In this document: one piece after another, positions 2,928 through 20,116 of the stretch
Numbering within the stretch: the first letter of the stretch is position 1
Layout of the letters: each line of letters begins with the position of its first letter
Assembly: GCF_019603315.1 (NCBI RefSeq)
Contig: NZ_CP080649.1
Coordinates: 1,689,501 to 1,753,500, forward strand
Direction: 5' to 3'
DNA: 64,000 nucleotides
Source: Ruficoccus sp. ZRK36
GTDB lineage: Bacteria > Verrucomicrobiota > Verrucomicrobiia > Opitutales > Cerasicoccaceae
The notes under the pieces: generated by a model
Told to the model about the DNA's origin: nothing
Database searches by the model: none
Seen by the model: the letters and a program-made list of their open reading frames with translations, nothing else
Position numbers and translations under genes: made by a program

Positions 2928-3444
2928 GACGTGGGCCTCTCTGTGCCGGGCTGCGGTTGGCGGCGGATTCGTCGCTCGGGGCGGAGGGTGAACGCGTCTG
3001 AGGGGGCGGCGTGGTGTCCTGGGTCGGCTGGGGAACAAGTGTTTGTCGGCGTTGGGCGGGCTTGACGTCGAATTGACGTCCTTCTACGAATCGGCCCGAA
3101 TTTGGATCCCAGCCGGTCGTTTCCAGATAGTCGAGCGCGACGGTACGCACCGCGCCGTCCAAGTCTTTGATGGTGCCGAGTTGTGCGGTGTACAGGTACA
3201 TATCTTCGCGGGTGCTCAGGCGGACTTCCAGTGTGATCAGACGCAGAAGCATGCCCTTGAGAGCGGGGTCGCGCTGGTTTTCAAGCCAGGTGTCGGAGAT
3301 CGTTTCGATGCACTCATCGCGTTCGTTGAGCCAGCGCTCGCTCAGGGCGGCGAAGCCGGGCGGCTGTTCTGCCGCCGGAGCAGCCAGTGGGAGGAGGGCC
3401 ACGAGGGTGGCGAAACAGAGGTTCTTGAACGAAGTTTTCTTCAT
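2920..3444 (-). CDS. Secreted protein of the ExbB/ExbD-like operon
   Basis: A 174-residue protein with a clear signal peptide (MKKTSFKNLCFATLVALLPLAAPAAE). The mature part begins with about 100 residues of predicted helix (LSERWLNERDECIETISDTW) and ends in a Pro/Gln/Ser-rich disordered tail. It is directly upstream of the ExbB-like gene and overlaps it by eight bases. Periplasmic location is inferred from the signal peptide. Family unknown. Confidence 0.65.
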   Translation of the reverse strand: MKKTSFKNLCFATLVALLPLAAPAAEQPPGFAALSERWLNERDECIETISDTWLENQRDPALKGMLLRLITLEVRLSTREDMYLYTAQLGTIKDLDGAVRTVALDYLETTGWDPNSGRFVEGRQFDVKPAQRRQTLVPQPTQDTTPPPQTRSPSAPSDESAANRSPAQRGPRHG

Positions 3445-3476
3445 AGTTTTAATCCTTTCAGACTTGGCGGTTGGGG

Positions 3477-4385
3477 CTACTGGGGGACATTGCCGTTGCG
3501 GATGTTGCGCAGGATGGTCTTGTCTCCTGCGCTCTGGGTGGAGGACGGGTTGGTCAGTGACGAACTGTTGAGCACATCGCTGAAGTTGGCGTTGCGGGAG
3601 GCCACACCGTCCTGAAATGCCTTGGGGACATTGACCAGGTCGCGGTCGCCGAAGCGCACCTGGCCGAGGCGGGCGAACAGGAGTTCTGTGATGCTGACCT
3701 GCGAGGCGACTTCGAGTTGGTAGCGCTCCATTTCCAGCAGTCCCTGGACGATGGCTAATTGCGCGGCGACTTCTTCGAGCGCTTCTGTTGTGGCATTGAT
3801 CTGGTTGAGCATCCCGCCTGCATCGACGGAGGAGGTGGCTTCGAGTTGCTGGTAGAGCAGGACCAGCGTCTGTTCGGTTGTAGCCGCCTGGGCCTTGGCC
3901 TGGGGGCTGTCTAGACTCTCTCCGAGCATGCCCAGCAGCGGCCCGACACCGAGGAGCACCTGACGGATCTGGCCTCTCTGGCGGTTCATTTTTGCGGGCC
4001 CCATGACGCCGTCGCGGAAGACCTCCTGGAGCCGTTGCAAGTCCTCGTCAACAGAAAGAAGGGTGTCCATCGACTGCGCGATGAGAAGTCGGTCATTAGT
4101 GTTGAGTTCGCTCAAACCTTTGACGATTTCACTCTTAATGGCGATGCGCTCGCGCTCATCATCGGTGTCGGTCCAAGTCTCGCGGAGGGCTTCCAGTTCG
4201 CCTTTGACAGCGGTCTGGGTGCTTTCCTGTTCGCGCATGGAGGCTTCGAGGTTGGTCAGCTTGGTGTCGACGCTTTCCACGAGACTGGCCAGGATATCTC
4301 CGGTTTCTTCACGGGCATGCAGGCCGGGATGGAGCCCGAATACGAGTGAGGCAGCCAGAATGGTAAGGTGTACGTGTTTGTTCAT
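3477..4385 (-). CDS. Secreted coiled-coil protein
   Basis: A 302-residue protein starting at ATG 4385 (MNKHVHLTILAASLVFGLHPGLHA is a signal peptide). Most of the chain is long heptad-type helix (SVDTKLTNLEASMREQ; KGELEALRETW; ATTEALEEVAAQLAIVQGLL), as in periplasmic coiled-coil proteins such as YbgF/CpoB-type Tol partners, though I cannot assign it to that family. It sits second in the operon, 32 bp upstream of the next gene. The C-terminus is polar and Asn/Ser-rich. Confidence 0.65.
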   Translation of the reverse strand: MNKHVHLTILAASLVFGLHPGLHAREETGDILASLVESVDTKLTNLEASMREQESTQTAVKGELEALRETWTDTDDERERIAIKSEIVKGLSELNTNDRLLIAQSMDTLLSVDEDLQRLQEVFRDGVMGPAKMNRQRGQIRQVLLGVGPLLGMLGESLDSPQAKAQAATTEQTLVLLYQQLEATSSVDAGGMLNQINATTEALEEVAAQLAIVQGLLEMERYQLEVASQVSITELLFARLGQVRFGDRDLVNVPKAFQDGVASRNANFSDVLNSSSLTNPSSTQSAGDKTILRNIRNGNVPQ

Positions 4386-4437
4386 AAGTGATGCCTTGTG
4401 TTTGGATACGTGTGTCGAGGGAGCGTGCATCGGTAGC

Positions 4438-4989
4438 CTAGATGCGTTCGCTTGTGTCAGGAGCAGTCCGCATGAAGACGAGCCCGTCACCGTCAGGGCT
4501 GACCGGCGTGAACGTATTGTGGCGGCCCGCTGAAGTGGTACGTTGACGGTCGCGTAACTGGTACAGGCGGCGGGTTTGCTCGTCCCAGGCCGCGCGCTGG
4601 TAGCGGTCGGCGAGTTTTTCGGCGGCATCGAGAGTACGGGTAAAGCCCGTCATATCTCCGGCTTTGAGGTACTCATTGGCGGCGGCGAGGTAGAGACGGA
4701 TGTTCAGTTCGTTGCGGCGGCTCTTAACCTCTGTGGCTTTGCTTTCGAGCAATTGGGCGGCATCGAAGTGGCGACCTTCCGCCCCAAGTGAAACGGCGAA
4801 CGCCGTGACCGCCTGCACGTCCTCACCTTCTGGTGCTACCTGGGTATTCCAGCCAGAGGTATTTTCAAATCCGATACGGCTGTAAGGGGTGGGGGAAGCT
4901 TCCGGTTGCGGGCTTGAGCAAGCGCTCAGAGTCAGGAATCCACTCAGGGCGAGCGCACCGCCCAGTGTCTGTACATAGTGTTTTTTCAT
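4438..4989 (-). CDS. Lipoprotein heading the envelope operon
   Basis: A 183-residue lipoprotein. The ATG at 4989 gives MKKHYVQTLGGALALSGFLTLSAC, a signal peptide with lipobox LSAC, so Cys24 is the likely lipidated residue. The mature part holds helical repeats (FDAAQLLESKATEV; LYLAAANEYLKAGD; RTLDAAEKLADRY) that look TPR-like. It is the first gene of the minus-strand operon and is divergent from the sigma-factor gene at 5130. Confidence 0.65.
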   Translation of the reverse strand: MKKHYVQTLGGALALSGFLTLSACSSPQPEASPTPYSRIGFENTSGWNTQVAPEGEDVQAVTAFAVSLGAEGRHFDAAQLLESKATEVKSRRNELNIRLYLAAANEYLKAGDMTGFTRTLDAAEKLADRYQRAAWDEQTRRLYQLRDRQRTTSAGRHNTFTPVSPDGDGLVFMRTAPDTSERI

Positions 4990-5129
4990 GGTATGAATGG
5001 GTTGGTGTTTGCGGGGTATTGCGGAGTTCAAGTGTTTCTTACGGGAAATTTTTCAGCGTGAGTGAGACAAGGAGGAAGGGATATCTTTTGTTTGACCTGA
5101 GCATGCTTTCATGAAATGGAAATCGCCCT
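4990..5129. promoter_or_regulatory. Divergent promoter region, envelope operon / sigma factor
   Basis: This 140-bp spacer separates the minus-strand ExbB/ExbD-like operon from the plus-strand ECF sigma-factor gene. It must hold the promoters of both units. I cannot pick the -35/-10 elements with confidence. The divergent arrangement makes it natural to ask whether the sigma factor controls the envelope operon. Confidence 0.4.
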
Positions 5130-5720
5130 ATGGAAGAAACCCGGACATCATTATTGGAACGGGTGCGTTCATCCGACAGATGCGCGTGGGAAGATTTTTA
5201 CCGCATCTATTGGGAGCCGATTGTGCGCTATGCCAGAAAGCTCGGAGTAAAGGAGCCGGATGCTTACGATGTTCTTCAGGAGACCATGGTCGTGCTGATG
5301 GATGTGCTGCCGCGCTTTCGCTATGATCGGTCGAAGGGGCGCTTTCGTAACTTTCTGCTCACGATCGTTCACCGTAAGTGCCTCGCTGCATTCAGACGCG
5401 GCAAACGCCGTCAGGAAACCTCGTGGGAAGCGCTGGGTGAGCCCGCCGAGCCCACGCCAGAGCCTGTTGACCCGAACGAAAGCCTGTGGCGCGAGTCACT
5501 CATGCACGAGGCATTACGGCGACTGGAGGGAGATTCTCGCATTCGCCCGGCGACTTTGGCTGCTTTTCGCGAATATGCCTTGGAAGGACAGTCCGCGTCT
5601 GAGGTCGCAAAAAAATACGGGCTAAAGGAGAACGCGCTCTACCAGATCCGTAACCGAATGGTTAGCCGATTGAGCGAGGAGGTCGAGCAGTTGGCGCGAA
5701 TGGCGGACCTCAGGGAATGA
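5130..5720 (+). CDS. ECF-type RNA polymerase sigma factor
   Basis: A 196-residue sigma-70 family protein of ECF size. Region 2 is visible at about residues 5-80 (LERVRSSDRCAWEDFYRIYWEPIVRYARK, then DVLQETMVVLMDVLPRF and GRFRNFLLTIVHRKCLAAFRR). Region 4 is at about 130-190 (REYALEGQSASEVAKKYGLKENALYQIRNRM, a helix-turn-helix that reads the -35). No anti-sigma gene with an obvious zinc motif is adjacent; the next gene encodes an FHA protein instead. Confidence 0.87.
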   Translation: MEETRTSLLERVRSSDRCAWEDFYRIYWEPIVRYARKLGVKEPDAYDVLQETMVVLMDVLPRFRYDRSKGRFRNFLLTIVHRKCLAAFRRGKRRQETSWEALGEPAEPTPEPVDPNESLWRESLMHEALRRLEGDSRIRPATLAAFREYALEGQSASEVAKKYGLKENALYQIRNRMVSRLSEEVEQLARMADLRE

Positions 5721-5817
5721 ATCGCAGGTTTGCTCCTGCCTGATGTAGGATGGAGCGACCTTGAGAATATTTAACATATGCCGTAAGAAACTCGATGGGG
5801 AAACAATACGTGGGACA

Positions 5818-6369
5818 ATGAATAAAAAACATAAATGGGAACCTTCACTTGACTTGCTGGCACAGACCATGAAGGAGACGCCGGGTGCACCGTTGGCTTT
5901 GTTTGACCGCCTGAAGTTTGCTTCAGAGCTCATCGCCGAAATGAACGGAATGATGCCCTTTGCTGCATGCTTGGCTTATCGTGGGTCCGGCCGAGTGGTT
6001 AATTCCTGCGGCCTGGAAAAAGTGCGGACAGTGGTTGGACGATCGGAGTCTGCGGAGTTGTGTGTAGCTGGAGACAGGCGGTTGTCGCGTCGGCATTTTG
6101 CGATTTCCCGGCATGGCCAAGACTATACGGTTGAAGAACTCGGTTCGACCAATGGAACCTGCGTCAATGCTGAAGCGCTCAAGCAGCCGCGCCTGCTTCG
6201 TTCCGGAGACCTGATAGAGGCTGGCAGTTGTGTCTTTGCTTTTATTATCGCATCGGATTTGGAGGAATATGCGGGAGTCACGCTACAAAATAACTCTTCT
6301 ACACTGATGGATAATAGTCCTGATCCTATTTTGTCCGATCAGAAATTAATCCCTGATGAGGAGGGCTGA
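5818..6369 (+). CDS. FHA-domain protein
   Basis: A 183-residue cytoplasmic protein when started at ATG 5818; a TTG start at 5761 would add 19 residues. The FHA domain is at about residues 65-140, with the hallmark residues VVGRSESAELCV, RRLSRRHFAIS and STNGTCVN (Gly-Arg, Ser-x-x-His and Asn-Gly). FHA domains bind phosphothreonine peptides. No Ser/Thr kinase gene is present nearby, so the partner is unknown. Placement right after the sigma factor suggests it may act in the same signalling route. Confidence 0.8.
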   Translation: MNKKHKWEPSLDLLAQTMKETPGAPLALFDRLKFASELIAEMNGMMPFAACLAYRGSGRVVNSCGLEKVRTVVGRSESAELCVAGDRRLSRRHFAISRHGQDYTVEELGSTNGTCVNAEALKQPRLLRSGDLIEAGSCVFAFIIASDLEEYAGVTLQNNSSTLMDNSPDPILSDQKLIPDEEG

Positions 6370-6449
6370 TTGCCTTTATCATGCTCTCCGGCGTGTCTAT
6401 TAAATTACCGGAATAAGCGTCGTTTAACCATAAGCAATCTGTATTCATA

Positions 6450-7415
6450 ATGAAAAATCTAATCCTTTTAATTTCTCTGTTTTTGTCTGCCGCATCTTCA
6501 ATGGCCTATGTCAAGCCCGTGGACGCGACATCGTCTGGAGCCGAGCTGCCAGCCGTCTTCCAGGCGGCCTCCCCGAGAGAGAGGATCAAGGCGATCCGTG
6601 TGGCGGAACTCGATGCCACTCGCAAGCTGGTTGAACGCATTTATGGCGTGTCCATCAATTCCGACACCGTGGTTTACGACTTGGTCTTGGCTGACGACCA
6701 GGTCGGGGCAGCCGTGAATAACCTGATCCGTGGCGTCAGAACGGCCGAGGGGCCGATCTATCAGGAAGACGGCCAGGTATGGGTGTTGAAGGAGGTTAAG
6801 CTCGCCACTGTTATTGAGGAAATCAAGAAGACCGTGAGACGCACCTATAAAGAGGGCAAACAGGTTACCGAGGAAGAATTGACGACGGTGACGCGCGAGC
6901 ATGGTCACACGACTCTGGATGCTCTCGGCAATGGCGCATTGCCTGGGACATCCGGGTTGAAGAAGATTCAGGCTAAACGGGCTGCCGAAGTCGATGCTTA
7001 TCGCCGCTTGGCTGAGCGTATGCTCGGGGTACAAATAACTTCGACGACCACGGTCAGGGATATGGCTCTGCGTTCGGATAAAATTCAGGCAAGGCTGGCG
7101 CAGGTTCTTAAAGGGGCCAAGCCGATTGATGTCGTTTATTCCGATGACGGTTCATGCACAGTCACCATGCAGATTAAGCTGGCCGACATCTACCATGTGA
7201 TCGAGCACTACGACAGCGAAGATAAATCTATTCTCAAGAGCGATATCGAAACCGATACGCGTACACTGACCGAGAGCGGTTACGGGTTGGCCCGGCTCGA
7301 CGTGGAACTTCCCGATGGGCCTGTATCGGATGGGGAAAGTAACGTAAAATCGGCTTTTCCTGAAACCACAATCGTGATTCGAAAGCTGGTGGGAACCGCT
7401 GTTGTCGCCGATTGA
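6450..7415 (+). CDS. Secreted protein with two LPP20-like domains
   Basis: A 321-residue protein with a signal peptide (MKNLILLISLFLSAASSMAYV). Two copies of an LPP20/FlgT-N-like unit are seen at about residues 46-125 and 171-250. Both share the pattern K-A-x-R-A-A-E-x-D-A-x-R-x-L-x-E-R-x-x-G-V-x-I, then T-x-V-x-D and a V-K-L-A-x-I-x-x-x-I end, so the protein arose by internal duplication. It is followed nine codons later by a lipoprotein gene. An envelope role is inferred. Confidence 0.72.
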   Translation: MKNLILLISLFLSAASSMAYVKPVDATSSGAELPAVFQAASPRERIKAIRVAELDATRKLVERIYGVSINSDTVVYDLVLADDQVGAAVNNLIRGVRTAEGPIYQEDGQVWVLKEVKLATVIEEIKKTVRRTYKEGKQVTEEELTTVTREHGHTTLDALGNGALPGTSGLKKIQAKRAAEVDAYRRLAERMLGVQITSTTTVRDMALRSDKIQARLAQVLKGAKPIDVVYSDDGSCTVTMQIKLADIYHVIEHYDSEDKSILKSDIETDTRTLTESGYGLARLDVELPDGPVSDGESNVKSAFPETTIVIRKLVGTAVVAD

Positions 7416-7861: not shown

Positions 7862-8308
7862 AGTGGTTCGGGAGAGCGCGTATCCGCGTGCTTTCAGCGA
7901 TGTGTGTTAACAACTGAGTTGGTCCCCTTGTTCGGGGTTTGAAATACGATCTCTCGAAGCTCCAAGTAGGGATTGTCTAGAGTTCCTTCGAGGAGCGTTT
8001 GAAGAAGGAGGTGCAGGTTTTGTTAGCGCCCGTTTTTAGCCGTGAATTTGCGGCTACGCTATCGTTGAAAACGGTGGCCGAGACCAAGTTCGTCCAGCCT
8101 CTAAGTATTTTGTTCAAGAGGCGACGCGAACGTCATATTGATCACCGTTTGGGGTGGTGGTGGCAATATGTGGACTCGCATTATTGGCCACGGGTTGTTT
8201 GTGGCCAACCTGTAAGGAGGCTGCTAATCGCACTGATTTTGTGTGTCGTTGGGCATGCCTCCGCGCTAGTTTTGAGTGGTAAGTCGGGTGGACTTGCCAC
8301 GAATACCC

Positions 8309-8335
8309 GGGAGGCGTTTTGCCTCTCCTTTTTAG
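8309..8335 (+). terminator. Rho-independent terminator, no intact gene upstream
   Basis: GGGAGGC pairs with GCCTCTCC (one G-U) around a GTTTT loop, followed by TTTTT. It faces the plus strand. No supported plus-strand gene precedes it within 650 bp, so it may belong to a lost gene or a non-coding transcript. Confidence 0.5.
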
Positions 8336-10475: not shown

Positions 10476-10727
10476 TGCGCTGCAACTCTTTTGACCGGGC
10501 GTACTGACTATGCGAAATTGCCCGCCTACCCACGTCAACCGCGCCCGCTTATCCCTGATTATGGGTCTGCTCAAGCTCGCCGCGGATATCTAGGAGGAAA
10601 TCATCTTCCTTCCCAAGACGGTCAAGGGCCGAGACCCCATCAGCATCCGGGCGTTGTTCAAGTTGCCACGCTGGAGGACTGGCGGGCACAGCGGAAGCAA
10701 CGGAGGAAAATTATCGAAGAAAGCTAA
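10476..10727 (+). pseudogene. Broken recombinase-associated small helical protein
   Basis: Pieces of one protein are spread over two frames. Frame 1 (from 10510) reads THVNRARLSLIMGLLKLAADI, then a TAG at about 10591, then EEIIFLPKTVKGRDPISIRALF. Frame 0 supplies the start (TGRTDYAKL, from 10494) and the end (VATLEDWRAQRKQRRKI, to about 10718). Together they match the small GHVTRARxxQIMxLLxLAPDIQEEILFLP family that I know as the companion of serine recombinases. At least two frameshifts and one stop show it is dead. It marks the left part of the island. Confidence 0.7.
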
Positions 10728-10751: not shown

Positions 10752-13316
10752 TCAGATTAATTGTTCAATTGCCAACTCAGTCTGAACGGCAGTTCTGACC
10801 TCTTCGTATATTCGGACATCAGCTTCAAGAGCTTCAAATGAAACCACCAGTGAGAATCGGGCCTTCGCTTCTTCATTACCGCGATCCCATCCTTTGTGGC
10901 CACGAACGATGATGCCAAAAGTATCCGGCAGTTCGTTACTGCGAGCAACGGTCCAGTCTTTTTGCACTGTCCCGTTTTTGCGATGACCACCTCGAATCAC
11001 GCCGTGATTATCTTGTCTGGCCAACATCCAACTGAAGGAATTACCTCTGATAGTGGGGTCATCGCTGAAGTCTTTAATTGCTCGATTCTTGAAATCGTGG
11101 AAATCCTCCCCCGAGTTACTGGTATGCCAATCTAGCCAAACCCCGAGATAGCCTCGTCGCGATTTACGTGTTCTCCTAGGCTCTGCAACATACGAGAGTG
11201 TTACATCGATTCGAACCGGAAAATCTGCTCCGGGAGCTCGAATTGCATCTGGAATCGGAACACCAAAAATCAATCCTTCTCCGGCCCTGATTTCATACTC
11301 TTCGTCTGGAATGAGGCAAACGCGCGTAGGAGCATTCTCAGTTGCCCTTTCTAAATTGGGCACACCGTATCCGAGAGTCTTTAAGGCAAAACATTGTTGT
11401 GTTGGGTCGGCACGCTCAGCCCAATCGGGCCAGCGTGCTGAGTTTACAATCAACGCTCGATACAGAAGTGGACTTCGATTCTCAAATTGCGTGGCTAAGA
11501 TGCCTGCGATGTGTGCGACCTTAGGGGCTGAGAACGATGTCCCGACTTGGTCCCGAGCTATTGCAGGACCACCGTCTAAAGTCGAACGTGCCATCTGAGG
11601 GCAGACCTCAGAAACAGTGCTCAACGAAGGTGGCACCCCTGTATCGCGAACTAAGTCTCCGCCATATTCAACCACTTCGGGTTTAATGCTATTCCACATT
11701 CCAAACCCAGAACGGCTAAAGGCAGAAGGATGTAACGCATCCGAAACAGAGCGTTTGATGCCATTATCATAAAAATCGCTGCTTATCGATCCTACGGTCA
11801 ATGCTTGAAGGCTTTGAGCAGGATTGGCAATGCGGCTGTTGGGTTCTTCTAGGTAAAATGGATATTCCCGACCGGCAGAAATGTGGTCGATGATTCCGGG
11901 ATTTGTAGTGCGGCTTCCTCTGTCGTGGATGTTACCTGCTGCTTGAATGAATAAAACGTCCTCATGATAACTCAAATAATCGATGGATGCCGCCCAGGTG
12001 CTCATTCGCTGGGTTCGATATGGCATATTTGCAGCAATTGAATGCTGGTAAATTCTGGTTTTTTCCGAATAACGACGAACTATTTCCTGAAGAAGAACTG
12101 GAGGATACAAGTTTAGCGGAAGATTGCAGTGACGATCAAGCACACGTGCATTTATAAGCCAAAATGGAGAAACGTGGATGCCTGTGTCTGGAACATTTTG
12201 CGGATAAAGGCATGTACTTGCAACCCGAGTCCCATGGCCTCCCTCTACTACGTAGTCGGCAACATCGTCATACGGTTCGCCTGGGATAAAGCAAAAGGAA
12301 TCAGCAGTAGCAATGGCTGCGGCCAACCATCGGTGGCCCTCTTGTATTCCGCTATCGACAACACAGATTGACGGGGCATCCGAGCTCGGTTGGCTGAGTT
12401 CAAAATCGTCACCATCGGATGGGGCGTTGAGCGGTGACGTTAGTGGCTGCTCTACTTCATCAGGAATCGTAATTTCGAAGACATTCGGGTGGTTTTTTAT
12501 TAGATCCGTGAATCCCTCGCCGCTCATCTGAATCCGCATGGAGAAGCTATCGGGGAATTCAACCAAGCCATCATCAAAAATCCCTTTTATTTCGCCGCCA
12601 TAGTGCTTGATGAGTTCTTCAAGATCAGCTTCTCGCTGGAGTCTCAAAGTGTCATATGCATCCCAATAATTTCTGACATCACGGGCGTGCTCTTCACGCT
12701 TCTTTTGGTTGGTTTCGGGCTTCCACCTTTTGTTTTGTTTGGGCTTGGCCTTCGGCTTCTTGTGAGGAGCAACTTCAATGGAGACATCTAAGGTAAAGGG
12801 GGCGTCCTTGCGGAAGGGCCAGTAATCTCTAAGTTTCTCGTCGAGTAACCGTTCGATTCGCCTTGGGTCATCTACTTCTGGATAGACTTCGAGGATGCTA
12901 GCCATCTTTCCTCCACCATGCTCCTCCTTTATGAATTGTTTGAGGCGCTCTTGAACGGTTTGAAGGTTGACGTCCTCTGTGGCGACGATGACGAACCCTT
13001 CATCATATTCTGCCACAAACTCTAAATTTAGCGTTTGAGAAAGCCATTCCAATACGTCGTCGTCTTCATCTGGAATCTGTAGAAGAAATGCATCGCCTCC
13101 AGATATTTCAGGCAGGCCAGCGGTCTTTCGTTCTTCCTTTCGATTCCGTGCAGATTCTGAGAACGAACTGAATCGATCAGCTAGATAGGCCCCATGCTCT
13201 GCCCTTCGCTCCTCATTTTCTTTGACGCGGTCCGGTTTTTCGCCTCCGCCTTCCAGCTTTGCATTGCCTCGAAATTTGTGGATGAGGGGTAAGTGGGGAA
13301 AGTCGGTGTTGGCCAT
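10752..13316 (-). CDS. Subtilisin-like (S8 family) protease, AAA-associated
   Basis: An 854-residue serine protease. The S8 catalytic triad is visible: Asp321 (CVVDSGI), His361 (GGHGTRVAS) and Ser594 (GTSFSAPKVA), with the oxyanion Asn462 (QAAGN). There is no signal peptide, so it is probably cytoplasmic. About 310 residues precede the protease domain, with a charged linker (about 185-215) and helical and beta segments. About 200 residues follow it, apparently beta-rich. It starts three bases after the stop of the AAA ATPase gene, so the two are one operon. The pair suggests ATP-regulated proteolysis, perhaps in defence or stress. Confidence 0.88.
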   Translation of the reverse strand: MANTDFPHLPLIHKFRGNAKLEGGGEKPDRVKENEERRAEHGAYLADRFSSFSESARNRKEERKTAGLPEISGGDAFLLQIPDEDDDVLEWLSQTLNLEFVAEYDEGFVIVATEDVNLQTVQERLKQFIKEEHGGGKMASILEVYPEVDDPRRIERLLDEKLRDYWPFRKDAPFTLDVSIEVAPHKKPKAKPKQNKRWKPETNQKKREEHARDVRNYWDAYDTLRLQREADLEELIKHYGGEIKGIFDDGLVEFPDSFSMRIQMSGEGFTDLIKNHPNVFEITIPDEVEQPLTSPLNAPSDGDDFELSQPSSDAPSICVVDSGIQEGHRWLAAAIATADSFCFIPGEPYDDVADYVVEGGHGTRVASTCLYPQNVPDTGIHVSPFWLINARVLDRHCNLPLNLYPPVLLQEIVRRYSEKTRIYQHSIAANMPYRTQRMSTWAASIDYLSYHEDVLFIQAAGNIHDRGSRTTNPGIIDHISAGREYPFYLEEPNSRIANPAQSLQALTVGSISSDFYDNGIKRSVSDALHPSAFSRSGFGMWNSIKPEVVEYGGDLVRDTGVPPSLSTVSEVCPQMARSTLDGGPAIARDQVGTSFSAPKVAHIAGILATQFENRSPLLYRALIVNSARWPDWAERADPTQQCFALKTLGYGVPNLERATENAPTRVCLIPDEEYEIRAGEGLIFGVPIPDAIRAPGADFPVRIDVTLSYVAEPRRTRKSRRGYLGVWLDWHTSNSGEDFHDFKNRAIKDFSDDPTIRGNSFSWMLARQDNHGVIRGGHRKNGTVQKDWTVARSNELPDTFGIIVRGHKGWDRGNEEAKARFSLVVSFEALEADVRIYEEVRTAVQTELAIEQLI

Positions 13317-13319
13317 TGC

Positions 13320-14291
13320 TTAAAAATGTCGTTTCACGTCCTGAGCTGCTGATTCTAGATCTTCCAAGGCTACCTCTTTACGGTTTGCCATAACTGAGCG
13401 CTTCGCAGCGTTCTGAGCAATACGCTCAACTTCACTGAAACTGAAACCATCTAAACTAGCCGCGAAATGCTCCAGATGGAGCTTTTTTGATACCTTCAAT
13501 GCGGACAAGCTTTGTTCAAGCAAACGTGCGATCTCGATGATCCCAGGCATTGGGATTTCGACAGCTTCGTCAAATCGACGATATATTGCCTGATCCAGAG
13601 CCTCATAATGGTTTGTTGCAGCAATAACCAGTCCATCGCCACGATAGTCCTCTAGTAGCTGCAGCAGCATATTAACAACGCGGGAGACTTCGCCAACGTC
13701 ATTATGGGCACCCCGTGCACGGGCAATCGTATCGCATTCATCCAAAAAGAGAGCGCAGGGCTGTGCTTCTGCTGCCTCGAAAATTTTGCCTAGATTGGAT
13801 GCGGTCTCTCCAAAGTATGACGAGATTAAGGTGTCAAAGCGCACTTTGTGGAGAGGGAGTCCTGTTGCCCAAGCAATTCGTTCGGCCCCCAAGCTTTTCC
13901 CACAGCCGGGAGGGCCGTAGAAGAGGATGCGTTGGCGTGCCCTCAAGCCAAACTTCGACAATCGAGTACGAGCGGCATACTCCTTTTCTATGCGAAAAAA
14001 ACGTTGCTCAATCGTGTCTGGAAGAACCATGTGATGCCGTAACTGATCATGCTCCAGTACCTGGACTAGAGGAGCTGAATCTCGGCGGGTTGAGGGCAAG
14101 GGAGCAAGCTTGCGAATCGGTGCTGACTGCTTGGCATCTGCTTTGGCGAGTTTACGCTCAAGGTCTTCGGCTAGTTTCGTGTGCCCTAGACGCTTCTCGT
14201 CTGCCACAATAGCACGACATACCGCCTTCAAGTCCAAGTCGGAACCGGCTTGGACACTGGCGAAAAGGCGTTTGAGGAGAGTGGCTTTCAT
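13320..14291 (-). CDS. AAA-family ATPase, partner of the S8 protease
   Basis: A 323-residue AAA protein. Walker A is GPPGCGKS (126-133), Walker B ALFLDECD (180-187), sensor 1 is in AATNH (about 225-228) and the likely arginine finger is in YRRFDE (about 237-242). About 110 residues lie before the ATPase core and a lid domain follows to the end. This size is typical of single-ring classical AAA proteins found beside S8 peptidases. It is first in a two-gene operon. It may unfold or present substrates to the protease or control its activation; this is inference. Confidence 0.88.
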   Translation of the reverse strand: MKATLLKRLFASVQAGSDLDLKAVCRAIVADEKRLGHTKLAEDLERKLAKADAKQSAPIRKLAPLPSTRRDSAPLVQVLEHDQLRHHMVLPDTIEQRFFRIEKEYAARTRLSKFGLRARQRILFYGPPGCGKSLGAERIAWATGLPLHKVRFDTLISSYFGETASNLGKIFEAAEAQPCALFLDECDTIARARGAHNDVGEVSRVVNMLLQLLEDYRGDGLVIAATNHYEALDQAIYRRFDEAVEIPMPGIIEIARLLEQSLSALKVSKKLHLEHFAASLDGFSFSEVERIAQNAAKRSVMANRKEVALEDLESAAQDVKRHF

Positions 14292-14837: not shown

Positions 14838-14978
14838 CTAATGGTGTTTATTTGCGCCTCGGACCCAGTGTTTAAGCTGGCTGAGGAGCTGTTTGTGATT
14901 TCCAGGGTTAAAACGCCATTCGCACTCTTTTAGAAACCAGTAGAAATTGTCGGGTTTAATGCTGTTGAAGCGCCGTGC
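14838..14978 (-). pseudogene. IS1595/IS1016-type transposase C-terminal remnant
   Basis: The minus strand encodes ARRFNSIKPDNFYWFLKECE then WRFNPGNHKQLLSQLKHWVR before a stop at 14838. The FLKECEWRFN core with following LL-x-x-L-K-x-W is characteristic of the C-terminus of IS1016-group transposases of the IS1595 superfamily. The catalytic part upstream is not found in any frame, so only a tail remains. Confidence 0.65.
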
Positions 14979-15360
14979 CTGAGTCCCACCTTTTGGCCCA
15001 GCGGTTATGATGGATTTCCGGTTGTGTGGCTGTGTTGGTTGGTTTAATTGCTTGGCAAGCTGGGTCGGGGTGAGCAAGCCCAGAGAACGATGAGACTTTA
15101 GTGATTATGCGGAGGCCCGCAGTCATCGAAGATGACGCGTGATTCACTGGGGGAGATGAATTCGCAATTGAGGCATGTTTTCACTGCGTTCGAGTGTCGC
15201 CAAGGCGGAGTCGAAGAAGCGATAACCCCTACGTCAAGGGATACTGACTAAAGCGAACTGGTTGCCTTACCATTTGTCACTGCCTCGCTTTTTTGCGCAG
15301 CTGGCCGCTATCGGCGCATGGCTATGTCCATTGGTTGCGTATAATGCCGTGAATGGATTT

Positions 15361-15377
15361 GTGCGTTTTTACCGCAC
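15361..15377. promoter_or_regulatory. Palindromic operator copy 1 (GTGCG-N7-CGCAC)
   Basis: A perfect 5-bp inverted repeat with a 7-bp A/T-rich spacer (GTGCG TTTTTAC CGCAC). Read on the other strand it agrees closely with the two copies before the XRE repressor gene (18849-18865 and 18889-18905), including the flanking AA after CGCAC. It lies 223 bp before the first gene of the relaxase operon. Repressor binding is inferred from the shared site. Confidence 0.6.
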
Positions 15378-15599
15378 GATAAGTCTGATGAGGCGTCCTA
15401 AATATCTACTGGGATGCAGGTGGCTTGCACCTAATCTGTTGCAAGCATCGTTCGAGCATCGCTATGGGCGATCTATGCGTGTGTGGAGTTCAGCGGTAAA
15501 CGGGCGCAATTAAGGCAATTTGGGGGAAATTTAGGGAACATGCTATTTTTTTGAAAAAAAACTTGGTGATTTTCGCCCGATTGCTCAAAAGGAGATATC

Positions 15600-15848
15600 A
15601 TGGAAAATTCCAACGAACTCAATTTAACTCCTAGTAATAATACTCTCAGCATTGAGAAATATACCAAGGTCCTGAAGGATAATGGACTTGATCCTAATGC
15701 TCCGGGCTTATTGCAAATCTTGATACGGAAGCACAGTGAGTCACTCACGTATGGTCTTGTGTCTAGAGCATACGCCGAGTGGAGGTCGCAAAAAAATAAA
15801 GCTAAGGATCGTGCCAAATCGGCGGAGGAGGGTAAAAATGAAAAATAA
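15600..15848 (+). CDS. Small unknown protein, first gene of relaxase operon
   Basis: An 82-residue protein, rich in Asn and Ser at the start and Lys at the end (SQKNKAKDRAKSAEEGK). A strong ribosome site (AAAGGAG) precedes the ATG. The centre (YTKVLKDNGLDPNAPGLLQILIRKH) looks helical and could bind DNA as an accessory of the next protein, but I recognise no family. Its end overlaps the relaxase-like gene by 11 bases, so the two are coupled. AT-rich codon use sets it apart from the core genome. Confidence 0.65.
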   Translation: MENSNELNLTPSNNTLSIEKYTKVLKDNGLDPNAPGLLQILIRKHSESLTYGLVSRAYAEWRSQKNKAKDRAKSAEEGKNEK

Positions 15849-17127
15849 AAGATCCCCGCTTAGGGGAAGGATTTCATCCAAGGTAAATACGGATCGAGCG
15901 ATTGAGCACCTAGACTCACAGAGTAAACAGCATCGAAAAGATCAAGAGTTTATTCAGGAGGCTCGTTCACATGCCAAAAATAAGTATGGAGACGCTTTTA
16001 ATATATTTCCTAATACTAGGCTAAAATATCCGAGTCTTAAAGGTGGAATGCGACTGGATCGGGACGGAATGATGCTGTCAAAAGAGCAGTATAAGCTCCT
16101 GATGAAACGCATCAGTGAGGATAGAGGTTGGTATTACTCTGTAGTGGTTGACAAGTATGGTCGTAATAGAACGCGAAAACGAAAAACAACCCCACTAAGG
16201 CAGATTGCAATTTCCTTTCGCCCGGATTTTGCGTTAGCGTTTAATGAGCTAGAGCATTCAAAGAATCCGCCTGTTGGTAACTTTTTGAAGAACGTTTTGA
16301 TGCCTGCGCTGGTGCAGGAATTTGTAATAACGACAGGCTTACAGATTGTGGCATCTGCGGTACACCCGGAGGAAGGTATGCTTCACGTGCATCTTATTTA
16401 TTCATGCGTTTCGGAGGAGCATCAACTACTTTGGGCGAAAGATGGTCGTGGCCGTCGGGGGGTGCGTTTGCTTGGACCTTCAGGGACGGGTGTTTTGCGT
16501 TTGGAAGAGGGTGGGCTGATGGACGCAAAAATTGCTGAGCAGTCCAGACTCAACCTGAGAGATCGGCTAGCCAGTACGCAGGGTGAGGAACCTCTGGATT
16601 TACGCCTATCTTATACCGTAGATGCGCTGTGCTCAATGTTCTTTGAGCGACGCGGTTTAACTTCGTTGCTGGCTAAATCAAGAGACCAGTATCGGTCTTA
16701 TTTGGTCCAAAAAATTAAGCAGCGTCCCGAGTCGATGAAGAAAGAGATTCGGTCACTAAGAGATAATCTCAGCGAGATGGAAGCGAAGATAAATAAGCTT
16801 CAGGAGGCGTTATTAATAAAAAAACATAGTGAACGTAGATATCTAGAGGTCTCGATCCATGAGCGTTTGAAAGGCATTGTTCCAACTGAGATCCTTCGTA
16901 ACTCGAGTTCATTTCAAGATATTCTTAGTCAGCTATATGAAGACGGTACCGATGCTACTCTAAAAATAGTAAAGAGCCTCGCGTCCAATCATGAAATTCC
17001 TGTTAGTTTCGAAGAGAGGGAGATGGCCTTGTATGATATTTCCCACTGGTATGTTGGTCGTCCAGATCCAGGGATTAAGCGTACCATTAATACTAAAGAA
17101 AACAAAATCGATAGGGACATCTCGTGA
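15838..17127 (+). CDS. HUH/relaxase-like protein
   Basis: A 429-residue basic protein. I use ATG 15838, preceded by GGAGGAGGG. Around residues 170-190 the sequence reads IVASAVHPEEGMLHVHLIYS: a His (176), an acidic pair and then His183-x-His185 in a hydrophobic strand. This matches the metal-binding HUH motif of rolling-circle replication and mobilisation relaxases (such as the HxDExxPHxH of MobV types). Candidate catalytic tyrosines are Tyr99 and Tyr100. A coiled coil lies at about 300-335. It may nick and move or replicate a plasmid-like element. The family is not firmly assigned. Confidence 0.6.
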   Translation: MKNKRSPLRGRISSKVNTDRAIEHLDSQSKQHRKDQEFIQEARSHAKNKYGDAFNIFPNTRLKYPSLKGGMRLDRDGMMLSKEQYKLLMKRISEDRGWYYSVVVDKYGRNRTRKRKTTPLRQIAISFRPDFALAFNELEHSKNPPVGNFLKNVLMPALVQEFVITTGLQIVASAVHPEEGMLHVHLIYSCVSEEHQLLWAKDGRGRRGVRLLGPSGTGVLRLEEGGLMDAKIAEQSRLNLRDRLASTQGEEPLDLRLSYTVDALCSMFFERRGLTSLLAKSRDQYRSYLVQKIKQRPESMKKEIRSLRDNLSEMEAKINKLQEALLIKKHSERRYLEVSIHERLKGIVPTEILRNSSSFQDILSQLYEDGTDATLKIVKSLASNHEIPVSFEEREMALYDISHWYVGRPDPGIKRTINTKENKIDRDIS

Positions 17128-17301
17128 TGAATTCTATCTATTTTATGAAGAATATTGTGATGTAGCAATCGGCCAAGTTAAACTAAACTTTAATTTTACC
17201 TGTTTTTTACGAAAAAAATCCACAGTGCCTTGGATTTTTTTAGATTAAACCACATAAGAAACTAGGCGCTCATGCTTAAATAAAAAAATATAATTAATGC
17301 T

Positions 17302-17814
17302 ATGAAAAATATGTTCAAAGACGAACCAAAAACAAGCAACGATTGGTTTCAGCTTAGCCTGACATCCGATACACCACAAAAGGCAGTTTTAAGCTATGGA
17401 GGTACGGAGATCGCATCCGCTGAATGCAAGATTAAATATCTTCTGGTGGCTCTTGGTGAAGGGCCTCGTGAATTTCATGATTTATCTCATAATCAGTATT
17501 ATTTTTACGATACCCATTTGCCGATATCCTCATTCTACGCATGTATTATTGCGGATCTGCTAAGCACTTTGAGCGTATTTTGCATGATGGATCATCGCCA
17601 AAAAATGCTGTATGATGCATGGACGACAAGTGATTTCCTGACGAGATTTAATGGAGGTATGTGCTTGATCAAAAAGAAGTTAAAAGATGAGACTCCTGGC
17701 GGTGTGATGAGTCTATTTAAGGATTTTGATGATCAACGGACTCTTATTTCGTACCGGAACTATCAGATAAATGTAATATACTTGGATTGGGAGAAGGAGC
17801 TTGGTATTTCATGA
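17302..17814 (+). CDS. Unknown protein of the AT-rich module
   Basis: A 170-residue soluble protein with no signal peptide. It has a central hydrophobic, aromatic region (NQYYFYDTHLPISSFYACII) and two or three cysteines. I recognise no domain. It follows the relaxase-like gene by 174 bp of very AT-rich DNA, in the same direction. The ribosome site is weak. Base composition like its neighbour suggests it arrived with it. Confidence 0.55.
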   Translation: MKNMFKDEPKTSNDWFQLSLTSDTPQKAVLSYGGTEIASAECKIKYLLVALGEGPREFHDLSHNQYYFYDTHLPISSFYACIIADLLSTLSVFCMMDHRQKMLYDAWTTSDFLTRFNGGMCLIKKKLKDETPGGVMSLFKDFDDQRTLISYRNYQINVIYLDWEKELGIS

Positions 17815-18466
17815 GGCAATGACTGTGTCCGCAGAGGTCTGTTTGTAAAGAAGGTCTATCTCCGTTCTTAATGATCTCACTGCCAATCAAAGGCACAAGT
17901 GTTCGTTGAGGCATGTCTTCGCTTCGCTTGCGTGTCGCCGTGTCATAGGCACAAGCTTGGTACGTCTCTGTCTTTGCCGTTGACGCTTTTGACGTAGACG
18001 CCTGGGCTTGGGGTTCCGGACTGCATGATCTCTCCCTGCGGTCACTTTTCTTCAAAAAATGTCCGAAATCGATGCTCGGGTGACTCTTTCCCATCGACTG
18101 ATATGCGCTGAAGCGACAAAATAATGAGCATATGATTTCGCTTTCCAATCTGAAAAAGACTATTGGTACGCCCAAGTGACTGAGTGATGCGTATTAATGC
18201 GACTACGTGCAATACTGCAGATTTCATTACGCCTTAACTCAAAAATGAATGAAGTCACTGTTTGCTGATAATCGGTGACTTGTGTGAGTACCCAGGCCCG
18301 TAACCCAATCCCCCATATATTACATGTTTTCCTATTGATGGTGTCTGAGTCCCACGCTTTAGCCCAGTAGTGAAAGAATATGAAATCTGTAAGGATTCTG
18401 AAGGCTTGGAAGGGAGGCAAAGGTGATGATTTTGATGACTTATCTGGGTATCTTGCGATAAGATGC
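17815..18466. other. 650-bp spacer with dispersed repeat copies
   Basis: No gene can be supported. Open frames on the minus strand (to 18175 and to 18420) have no domain and no ribosome site. It holds second copies of two short sequences found left of the relaxase operon: 17906-17939 (28 of 34 positions match 15168-15201) and 18343-18369 (23 of 27 match 14983-15009). Confidence 0.5.
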
Positions 18467-18817
18467 TCAGAAACTGTGATGCCGACCGTTGATTTCTAGA
18501 CCGAGAGAGGGTACCTCTGTGTGACCTAATTCGAAGTCTAATACTTCTATAAGTAGATATGTATCTAGCATATATATTCTTAATGGCATGGGGATGGTCT
18601 CGATTTTAAGTAAGCTATTTATTAGTTTTTTTCCTGGTCGAATCTTATTGTTCAAGACGCGAGATAGCTCTGACCGAGAAACTCCCAGAAAATTTGCAAA
18701 TTCGTAAACTTTCATATTTTGGTCTAATCTCATGTCGTTGATCATTGAACAGAGGTCTTGCGTGATAGATGCTTGATATTCGGCCGGGACAAATTGTTTA
18801 CTCATTCCAAATGACAT
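18467..18817 (-). CDS. XRE/Cro-type repressor
   Basis: A 116-residue protein with a Cro/CI helix-turn-helix at about residues 35-68 (MKVYEFANFLGVSRSELSRVLNNKIRPG). The C-terminal half is short and hydrophobic and may dimerise. The start is ATG 18817; ATG 18805 is an alternative. It is divergent from the frameshifted excisionase-like gene. Two palindromes of the same sequence lie 32 and 72 bp upstream, one over the likely -35 element, so it probably represses itself. The third copy before the relaxase operon suggests control of that operon. Confidence 0.75.
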   Translation of the reverse strand: MSFGMSKQFVPAEYQASITQDLCSMINDMRLDQNMKVYEFANFLGVSRSELSRVLNNKIRPGKKLINSLLKIETIPMPLRIYMLDTYLLIEVLDFELGHTEVPSLGLEINGRHHSF

Positions 18818-18831
18818 AGTTCATTTTAATT

Positions 18832-18837
18832 ATTATA
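18832..18837 (-). promoter_or_regulatory. Probable -10 element of the XRE repressor gene
   Basis: The minus strand reads TATAAT here, a perfect -10 consensus in AT-rich DNA just before the repressor gene. A 17-bp spacer places the -35 region inside the first upstream palindrome (18849-18865). The transcript start would lie only about 8 bases before ATG 18817, giving a very short leader, or about 20 bases before ATG 18805. Confidence 0.5.
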
Positions 18838-18848
18838 TCGAGTAAGAT

Positions 18849-18865
18849 GTGCGGAGAAAACGCAC
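18849..18865. promoter_or_regulatory. Palindromic operator copy 2 (GTGCG-N7-CGCAC)
   Basis: Perfect inverted repeat GTGCG GAGAAAA CGCAC, extended one base each side (T...A). It overlaps the expected -35 region of the repressor promoter, a position suited to autorepression. Confidence 0.65.
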
Positions 18866-18888
18866 AAATACGTAAAATCGGCTGAAGC

Positions 18889-18905
18889 GTGCGGGAAAAG
18901 CGCAC
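18889..18905. promoter_or_regulatory. Palindromic operator copy 3 (GTGCG-N7-CGCAC)
   Basis: Perfect inverted repeat GTGCG GGAAAAG CGCAC. Its centre is 40 bp from that of copy 2, close to four helical turns, so two repressor dimers could bind on the same face of the DNA. Confidence 0.65.
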
Positions 18906-19064
18906 AACATTAAGGTAGGCAGGCTGCCTGCCAATATATTACCGGCCAGATAATATCGCGGTTTCGTATCGTTAACCTCATGATTTTACCCAAATTGCTG
19001 GTATTATAAGATATCGATAGTCTTTTTTTCACTTTCTCCTTTTTTTTGGATCTGGTCGGGCCAT

Positions 19065-19665
19065 ATGAAGGAGGGTGAACCCAGTTACATCACCTTACAG
19101 TCAAGACAGGGATTTGTCGTCTTTGAGGGGGAGTTGTGGGATAAAAATAACGGAAGGCTGTTTTTACGAAGGTGTCTATTTTAACGGCTATGTACCAATA
19201 TGGATTCGCCCACCTGAATCAGGGGAACGATGCCCCTGGACCACGTTATCCCATGGCGGGTTTTATGACTGGATTAGTAGTTTGGGACGACGAACAATTA
19301 TATTTAAGTTTAACCCGGATACGGTGACGGGAACACGACTATTTTGGCTACCGAGTGTCATGTGTGCGTTTCGAGGAGGACGGTGCAAGCAAACTGCGCC
19401 ATATCGTCATGAACTTGATGATCGAAAAGTACTTTTTCCTCCAATACCTCCCAAATTTATTCGTGCCCCTCGGAGGCATCAGCATTGTCCCTGGACGGGA
19501 TTGTCTCAAAGTGGATTTATATCCATTCAAAAGCGTTATGGCCGACGTATCGCGTCACGTATGGATGATTCTAAGGGCAGGGGGACGACCTTAGTTTGGT
19601 TGCCCGAATTAATTCAGGAAATGATGAATGAGGCAGAAAATTTAGGTTATTGGCTCACTGAATAG
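19065..19665 (+). pseudogene. Tandem excisionase-like protein, frameshifted
   Basis: The coding sequence lies in two frames. From ATG 19065 it reads MKEGEPSYITLQSRQGFVVF, continuing to NNGRLF at 19163; then the next frame carries on YEGVYFNGYVPIWIRPP to the stop at 19665. One T fewer in the T5 run at 19161-19165 would restore one frame. The product has two similar units: IRPPESGERCPWTTLSHGGF ... RLFWLP and IRAPRRHQHCPWTGLSQSGF ... TLVWLP. The CPWTGLSxxG core followed by a basic wing resembles the helix-turn-helix of small excisionase or AlpA-like proteins. A GTG start at 19075 would give a 196-residue product without the N-terminus. Confidence 0.6.
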
Positions 19666-19808: not shown

Positions 19809-19839
19809 AAGCCTGTAAGCGATTTGCTTACAGGCTTTT
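19809..19839 (-). terminator. Bidirectional terminator after tRNA-Asp
   Basis: GCCTGTAAGC (19811-19820) pairs perfectly with GCTTACAGGC (19826-19835) around a 5-base loop. It is flanked by A and T runs, so it can end transcription in both directions. It lies just past the 3' end of tRNA-Asp. Confidence 0.8.
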
Positions 19840-19846
19840 AAAAAAG

Positions 19847-19923
<77 letters not shown>

Positions 19924-20116
19924 TCGAAAGAGGAAAGAGGCCGAAGTTAGTTGATGGGCGCGGTATGTCAAGCGGTCAATTCGCACTTTTTTCAGAAAGG
20001 TTGCTTTTTCTTTTTCGGCATCGGTCTGAATCCAGTATTTATGGGCTCTCCAGTAGGTTTTATGGGAGTAAAGTTCGCAGTTTACGAAGCGTGGGCGGGT
20101 GTCTAGCGTGCCAGAT

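Follow-up and report, generated by a model that had tools for sequence, protein, structure and literature searches.

According to a review, the HUH relaxases comprise the families MOBF, MOBP, MOBQ, MOBV and MOBB (PMC12857230), and a second paper gives MOBL as a further relaxase family and describes motif III of the MOBP, MOBQ and MOBV relaxases as a 3-His motif (PMC5313138). Cleavage proceeds through a histidine in MOBV relaxases and through a tyrosine in other HUH relaxases (PMC5863519, PMC12857230). We analysed a locus of Ruficoccus sp. ZRK36 that resembles both these enzymes and the integrative mobilizable elements (IMEs) that carry a relaxase (iMOB). It lies in a 64,000-nucleotide stretch (G000:C1:1689501-1753500; hereafter the window) of a 3.76-Mb genome of two contigs, and its central genes are:

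15838 to 17127, + strand: HUH relaxase-like protein, 429 amino acids (aa), from open reading frame (ORF) calling, motif alignment, structure model and profile comparison; putative active site H24, H176, E179, H183 and H185
15600 to 15848, + strand: small partner protein, 82 aa, with an 11-nt overlap with the HUH gene; similar small ORFs stand upstream of the HUH gene in the nearest family members

The length of 429 aa is counted from the protein's own ATG, the 463-aa version in the ORF list beginning at an upstream GTG; the small partner is presumably helical, as read from its sequence alone. We propose that the 429-aa protein is probably a relaxase-type HUH nickase and the prototype of an undescribed family, acting as the transfer-initiation enzyme of IMEs that sit at tRNA 3' ends and often have anti-phage defence genes beside them.

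The window protein gave no credible match in Pfam, PHROGs, NCBIfam, PADLOC or the sequences of the PDB. When twelve members of its family were compared with Pfam and NCBIfam (those of loci L064 to L068, found later, were left out), the best match was a coiled-coil family at E 0.0018, with none to Mob_Pre or to any Pfam relaxase, and no report of the family was found in the open-licence literature searched. Among the close genomes, 3 of 88 contained a member; the class search, made with the first profile, gave 10 of 384 genomes, the order search 12 of 372 and the phylum search 7 of 387. Note that these counts are lower bounds from overlapping sets that include the own genome, with at most four candidates per genome scored in the class, order and phylum searches. 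The family set used here holds 17 full-length members in 16 genomes (16 members besides the window's), a truncated second copy in G284 being left out. All hits fall in the class of the window (Verrucomicrobiota), including one from Ereboglobus sp. PH5-10 (L048), which belongs to the class Opitutia of the Verrucomicrobiota in the NCBI taxonomy; phyla beyond the Verrucomicrobiota were covered solely by two pattern scans of genome contigs, of which the first confirmed none and the second gave two already-known loci. The family is sporadic in this class. In G284 (L020, 7895 to 10385), the truncated copy belongs to a partial tandem duplication around the HUH gene.

The motif of the window protein, H176-x6-H183-x-H185, reads H-P-E-E-G-M-L-H-V-H, and all 17 members share residues H24, H176, H183, R221 and G226. 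A profile of the 17 HUH domains matched seven MOBV sequences at 80.1% over 76 columns (score 41.9, the best of 40 column-shuffled controls scoring 17.5), five MOBP sequences at 29.2% over 25 columns and five MOBQ sequences at 2.5%, with 0.1% for each of five Rep_1 sequences, four IS200-type sequences and the integrases taken as groups. In each of the MOBV, MOBP, MOBQ, Rep_1 and IS200-type comparisons, none of 40 column-shuffled controls exceeded 0.7%; for reference, MOBV against MOBP gave 10.2% and MOBV against MOBQ 33.9%. The five nearest members alone reached 51-58% with MOBV and less than 3% with MOBP. An AlphaFold2 model built from three sequences (pLDDT 72.2, pTM 0.54), with pLDDT mostly above 70 over residues 61-400 and with residues 1-60, including H24, modelled without confidence, shows a plausible succession of strands (98-104, 110-116, 120-126, 170-178 and 181-189) and helices, the latter spanning 129-139 and 145-166. 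It puts H176 on strand 170-178 and H183 and H185 on the neighbouring strand 181-189.

The likeness to MOBV (MobM of pMV158; Pfam Mob_Pre) extends to the spacing of the 3-His motif and its glutamate (H-L-D-E-S-T-P-H-M-H in MobM, with H126, E129, H133 and H135), to an aligned strand and helix before the motif, and to a conserved N-terminal histidine with another eight residues on (H24 and H32 here; H22 in MobM by our own count). H22 and H30 of MobM were counted on a sequence that a plasmid record matches at 100%. Unlike MOBV, the family has no Pfam match and aligns over 76 columns with a signal carried mostly by the motif, about 150 residues separate the N-terminal histidine from the motif (about 100 in MobM), a clade of seven members that mostly have an aspartate for the last motif histidine gives no match, and the genes are found near integrases and not on plasmids. 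MOBP relaxases (TraI of RP4, NikB) share a resemblance in motif III, the one seen over the 25 columns, but the similarity is confined to the motif and the family has no invariant tyrosine. We would assign the family neither to MOBV nor to MOBP.

The HUH motif is also that of rolling-circle Rep proteins, and the protein could be the Rep of elements that exist by turns in the chromosome and as a circular plasmid, with no start of conjugation. A tyrosine-rich position behind the motif (Y285, 13/17), the small operon with its own presumed repressor and upstream palindromes, and the lack of noticed secretion-system genes nearby (type IV secretion and coupling-protein genes were not searched for) would suit such a role, and MOBT relaxases are listed as related to Rep_trans (PMC12857230), so that the roles of relaxase and Rep overlap. 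The profile results point the other way, Rep_1, the only Rep family compared, being at noise against 80.1% for MOBV, as do the H176-x6-H183 spacing, which is that of the relaxase 3-His motif, and the failure to find any member on 72,556 plasmids (four members tried); we consider a Rep unlikely. The same plasmid search speaks against the small integrated plasmid proposed in an earlier reading of these letters (the original prediction). An HUH transposase of the IS200/IS605, REP-associated or IS91 type, or a domesticated derivative of one, would account for the motif as well as for two pairs of direct repeats, D2 and D3, around the module, but the HUH gene is single-copy in its own genome, the IS200-type TnpA profile, the only class compared, gave 0.1%, and many relatives lie near tyrosine integrases, all of which makes a transposase extremely improbable. 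The relaxase-like character that the original prediction gave to the protein is supported by the MOBV comparison, with no backing from Pfam or NCBIfam and none for Rep_1.

The setting of the genes also agrees with a relaxase-type nickase. A tyrosine integrase lies 0.2-5.1 kb from the HUH gene in 10 of the 17 loci (L018, L019, L021, L022, L025, L026, L064, L066, L067 and L068, the last two being near-copies), where simple arithmetic from the 14 PF00589 hits in the 3.76-Mb own genome predicts less than one of 17. The PF00589 matches of L021, L022, L025 and L026 pass the cut-off, those of L064 and L067 fall short of it; L018, L019 and L066, with no PF00589 match, and L068, which was unscanned, were called integrases by BLAST clustering with the others. 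A tRNA gene is located 101-433 bp from the integrase in five of these ten loci (tRNA-Val in L018, Phe in L064, Pro in L066, and Met in L067 and L068), the integrase being on the tRNA 3' side in L018, L064, L067 and L068. Both attachment sites were seen in one locus, L022 (G172), where the tRNA-Gln 3' end at 6685 recurs as a perfect 26-bp copy at 13694, the two enclosing 7.0 kb; the HUH gene starts 444 bp past the tRNA-Gln, and the integrase lies 48 bp from the far repeat copy. The elements of G672 and G660, two genomes of one genus (L067 and L068), are related, with 82-89% DNA identity in long blocks, and their similarity stops at the tRNA-Met. An apparent tRNA-Lys in L019 overlaps ORFs and was not counted. 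As many relatives carry an integrase, the data favour an integrative element that targets tRNA genes over an integrated small plasmid.

The five nearest members have a small ORF (73-106 aa) upstream of the HUH gene, which it overlaps in the window; elsewhere the two stand ~70-400 bp apart. The small proteins of the window, G005, G148 and G293 form six pairs, of which five scored above every one of 500 shuffles and the sixth was reached by 15 of 500; that of G075 is linked only via G293. Further genes are shared within sub-clades (L023/L024, L021/L026 and L067/L068). Helix-turn-helix genes recur beside the HUH gene as HTH_17 matches below the Pfam cut-off in L019 and L025, and by eye only in L022 and L026, where Pfam found none; an HTH_3 protein is encoded ~3 kb from the HUH gene in L018. 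Overall, the family is relaxase-like, apparently undescribed, and tied to integrative elements at tRNA sites, several of them beside defence genes. The unnamed relaxase-like family in a mobile setting of the original prediction thus fits what was found: a sporadic family, with an integrase near 10 of 17 loci and with MOBV as its nearest profile relative among those tried.

An integrase, an excisionase-like gene, an XRE repressor and a tRNA site are typical of phage satellites, and defence cargo is common there, so that the HUH protein might belong to a satellite or prophage and nick DNA for phage-type replication and packaging. However, neither the HUH protein nor the small or the 170-aa protein of the module has a PHROGs match below E 0.02, no HUH relative was found in 50,697 phage records (window member only), and none in three scans of viral contigs; we judge a phage origin very unlikely. 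For a relaxase of IMEs, by analogy with known systems, the steps would run as follows. The integrase would excise the element as a circle, and the HUH protein together with the small protein would nick a single strand at an origin that precedes the operon, close to the 15361 palindrome. The nicked strand would then pass to a recipient via a helper's secretion system, or undergo rolling-circle replication, and the element would re-integrate at a tRNA gene, the XRE protein silencing its own gene and the small+HUH operon through common palindromes. Nicking, transfer, repression by the XRE protein, the origin of transfer (oriT) and the common operon are all modelled here on such systems. The window copy would be stranded, or reliant on an integrase in trans, because the integrase is missing there.

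Several observations weigh against the protein being such a nickase. The full H-U-H motif, present in the window protein (H176, H183-V-H185), is lacking in 8 of 17 members, H185 being a histidine in 9 of 17 and otherwise D (5), N, Q or G (one each). No tyrosine is invariant among the 17 members, and a tyrosine behind the motif, such as Y285, would better suit the order found in Rep proteins or transposases. Removing the ten motif columns from both profiles lowered the MOBV match to 1.2% and its score to 19.5, where the best of 60 controls reached 16.5, and the MOBV link is therefore carried mostly by the motif; the seven-member clade alone gave 3.5% with MOBV and 16.9% with MOBP. At the level of the loci, no integrase was found in 7 of 17, the window included, three of which (L006, L020 and L024) lie less than 7 kb from a contig end; this search used tblastn, and Pfam on selected ORFs of L005, L020, L023, L024 and L065 but on none of L006. 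The L066 integrase is on the 5' side of its tRNA, and a second tRNA repeat was not found for L018, L064, L066, L067 and L068 in the stretches read. In the window, a second tRNA-Asp 3' end was found neither in the 64 kb nor in the 4.5 kb to its left. Finally, the oriT of the elements is a putative feature only, and the absence of members from the plasmids and phage records given above counts here too.

The tree of the family splits, with support 97/99, into seven members with H-x6-H-x-D/N/G (H-x6-H-x-D in 5/7) and ten members, including the window's, nine of which have H-x6-H-x-H; within the ten-member group most branching is unresolved, and the tree clusters host families only weakly. Two columns are rich in tyrosine, Y99 (14/17) and Y285 (13/17). 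Y99, in a W-Y motif, was promising as the family nucleophile in 12 sequences, but L021 has F at this position and L067 and L068 have R, and Y285 was likewise rejected as a nucleophile of the whole family with tyrosine in only 13 of 17; either could serve in those members that carry it. H24 is the sole invariant N-terminal residue able to act as a nucleophile, a second histidine follows at +8 (H32) in 13 of 17 members, and the MOBV profile alignment stops short of the N-terminal part that holds H24. We therefore put forward a histidine nucleophile at H24 as a hypothesis. The bolder proposal, that this is a new relaxase family with an H24 nucleophile and the second such lineage beside MOBV, with one clade that has mostly exchanged the last metal-ligand histidine for aspartate, and that it forms the transfer module of tRNA-targeting elements by which anti-phage defence systems spread in the Verrucomicrobiota, appears to us rather doubtful.

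At the window itself, the putative integration target lies to the right of the module:

19847 to 19923, - strand: tRNA-Asp(gtc), 3' end toward the module

The right flank from ~19836, with the tRNA-Asp, is conserved in six of the seven relatives searched, G003 giving no match, and on the left the last stretch in common with this congener ends at 4851. Another congener, G002, has behind this tRNA-Asp an integrase gene (L036) that falls in the BLAST cluster of the HUH-locus integrases and matches PF00589 below the cut-off (E 0.004), and G001 carries other genes at this flank; the tRNA-Asp is presumably the target of the window element. Two matches of the G002 integrase were set aside, one to window positions 19831-20028, which spans the tRNA region and is not an integrase, and a weak one of 16 residues beside the tRNA-Asp in G001. 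No credible integrase was found in the 64-kb window by tblastn of ten integrases (nine from HUH loci and one from G002), and none of the 14 PF00589 hits of the own genome is inside it, the nearest integrase being ~21-22 kb to its left. An integrase with attachment sites, as expected of an IME, is therefore found in relatives and not at the window copy. The view that the module went in with no integrase to be seen holds for this copy, while many relatives carry one.

This raises the question of whether the window copy is a dead remnant of a relaxase-like element, with integrase and second attachment site gone and only the defence genes still under selection, an explanation that overlaps with the nickase reading. 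The lack of an integrase and of a tRNA-Asp repeat is consistent with this, as are the orphan 170-aa neighbour and the repeats and AT-rich DNA around the genes, but the HUH, small and XRE genes are open, the residues invariant in the family are kept and three palindromes are intact. A remnant is possible, at somewhat less than even chance. The palindromes, of the form GTGCG-N7-CGCAC, are:

15361 to 15377: ~220-240 bp upstream of the small+HUH pair
18849 to 18865: upstream of the XRE gene
18889 to 18905: second copy before the XRE gene, 40 bp from the copy at 18849

The palindrome that the original prediction saw as common to the repressor promoter and the DNA before the relaxase operon is thus real, with three copies instead of two. 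The whole 3.76-Mb genome has ten such sites, against 13 for a backward-read control pattern, and three of the ten inside 3.5 kb are far above chance, though the pattern was defined post hoc. In folding, the palindromes surpass their shuffled versions (z -2.6 and -3.0), the value for the 15361 copy as a single strand being z -2.6; this copy could serve as an operator, as an oriT hairpin or in both roles. In L064 (G662, 6728-6856), a palindromic 24-nt repeat in two copies 105 bp apart is present between the integrase and the small+HUH operon, placed like the operators of the window.

The direct repeats around the module are:

14975 to 15001: D3, left copy, 85% identical to the right copy
18341 to 18367: D3, right copy
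15168 to 15201: D2, left copy, 82% identical to the right copy
17906 to 17939: D2, right copy

The two D3 copies are the sole exact matches of their shared pattern in the genome, with one further site at three mismatches, and D2 (15168-15201) folds no better than shuffles. As element ends, D2 and D3 were rejected: their order is nested (D3-D2-module-D2-D3), not that of one duplicated stretch, and they are only 82-85% identical. The same repeat search in 13 other loci (L021, L066 and L068 left out) gave a repeat just around the HUH gene only in L019. There, in G293, a 38-nt direct repeat (6138-6175 and 8282-8319; 95% identical, 33 nt perfect, with pairable ends) flanks the HUH gene and the HTH_17-like gene and is a candidate nick or recombination site; its folding is little better than that of shuffles (z -1.0).

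The other features of the module and of its right border are:

17302 to 17814, + strand: orphan protein, 170 aa, outside the conserved unit; found in the own genome only (1/342), with no credible family
18467 to 18817, - strand: XRE-type protein, 116 aa, presumed repressor (Pfam HTH_3, PHROGs regulators)
17212 to 17241: possible terminator, an A/T-rich 11-bp perfect inverted repeat between the HUH and 170-aa genes
19075 to 19665, + strand: 196-aa protein just outside the module (15168-18930), with 27-28% identity to a protein 1.9 kb from the G284 HUH gene

The four genes of the AT-rich module were recovered as described originally, with H176, H183 and H185 at the positions given and a G+C of 0.429 across 15168-18930 against 0.572 for the whole window. 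A self-standing element of four genes did not emerge: the 170-aa protein is an orphan, and BLAST gave no relative of the XRE protein among the genes that neighbour the HUH gene elsewhere. Likewise, of the four genes expected together elsewhere, the small+HUH pair recurs in the five nearest members, and the four-gene order was not found in the genomes searched. The XRE protein matches Pfam HTH_3 at E 5.5e-5 (23.6 bits, cut-off 23) and several PHROGs regulators, and a terminator scan did not list the inverted repeat at 17212-17241. The 196-aa ORF is rare (5/342 genomes, the own included, with shorter relatives in three other genomes), and by eye it looks like two tandem copies of a domain that may be an excisionase-like DNA-binding protein of mobile elements.

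Left of the module lies a defence pair, with both genes open (10752-14291):

13320 to 14291, - strand: IetA of the IetAS pair, possible cargo (PADLOC IetA, E 4.3e-77)
10752 to 13316, - strand: IetS (subtilase) of the IetAS pair, possible cargo (PADLOC IetS, E 2.3e-56)

Defence genes occur within 5 kb of the HUH gene in 7 of 17 loci, namely IetAS in the window, GajA of Gabija in L005 (where GajA alone was looked at, and GajB was not looked for), type I restriction-modification (R-M) in L006, L026, L067 and L068, and DSR2 in L023. PADLOC was given selected proteins, five of the window and ten from eight loci, and found none among the chosen proteins of L021 and L022. These genes are possible cargo inside the elements; they match known PADLOC models of IetAS, Gabija (GajA only), DSR2 and type I R-M, and differ from the described systems in adjoining this HUH family, a link for which no earlier report was found in the open-licence literature searched. 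In L023 (G280, 3109-7000), the DSR2-like gene beside the HUH gene is split into two ORFs. Separately, window positions 10506-10693 show 81-84% identity to places in the congeners G003 and G002, as a dispersed repeat or RNA of unnamed type would, with no match in Rfam.

The elements are a variant of IMEs with HUH relaxases: they share with these a tyrosine integrase, a relaxase-like gene, a tRNA site and cargo, and differ in that the relaxase family is unnamed and the oriT and the helper are ones that we infer. Mobilizable elements are recognised by their relaxases, and because this family is missed by the Pfam, NCBIfam, PHROGs and PADLOC models, a phylum common in the environment may have mobile elements that are taken for non-mobile islands. 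Two questions arise from the invariant N-terminal histidine and the change from histidine to aspartate: whether relaxases other than MOBV use a histidine, and whether an H-x-D site is able to nick DNA. That IetAS, GajA, DSR2 and type I R-M genes lie close to the family suggests a path for the movement of defence genes in the Verrucomicrobiota, which may be an undescribed way for such genes to pass between members of this phylum.

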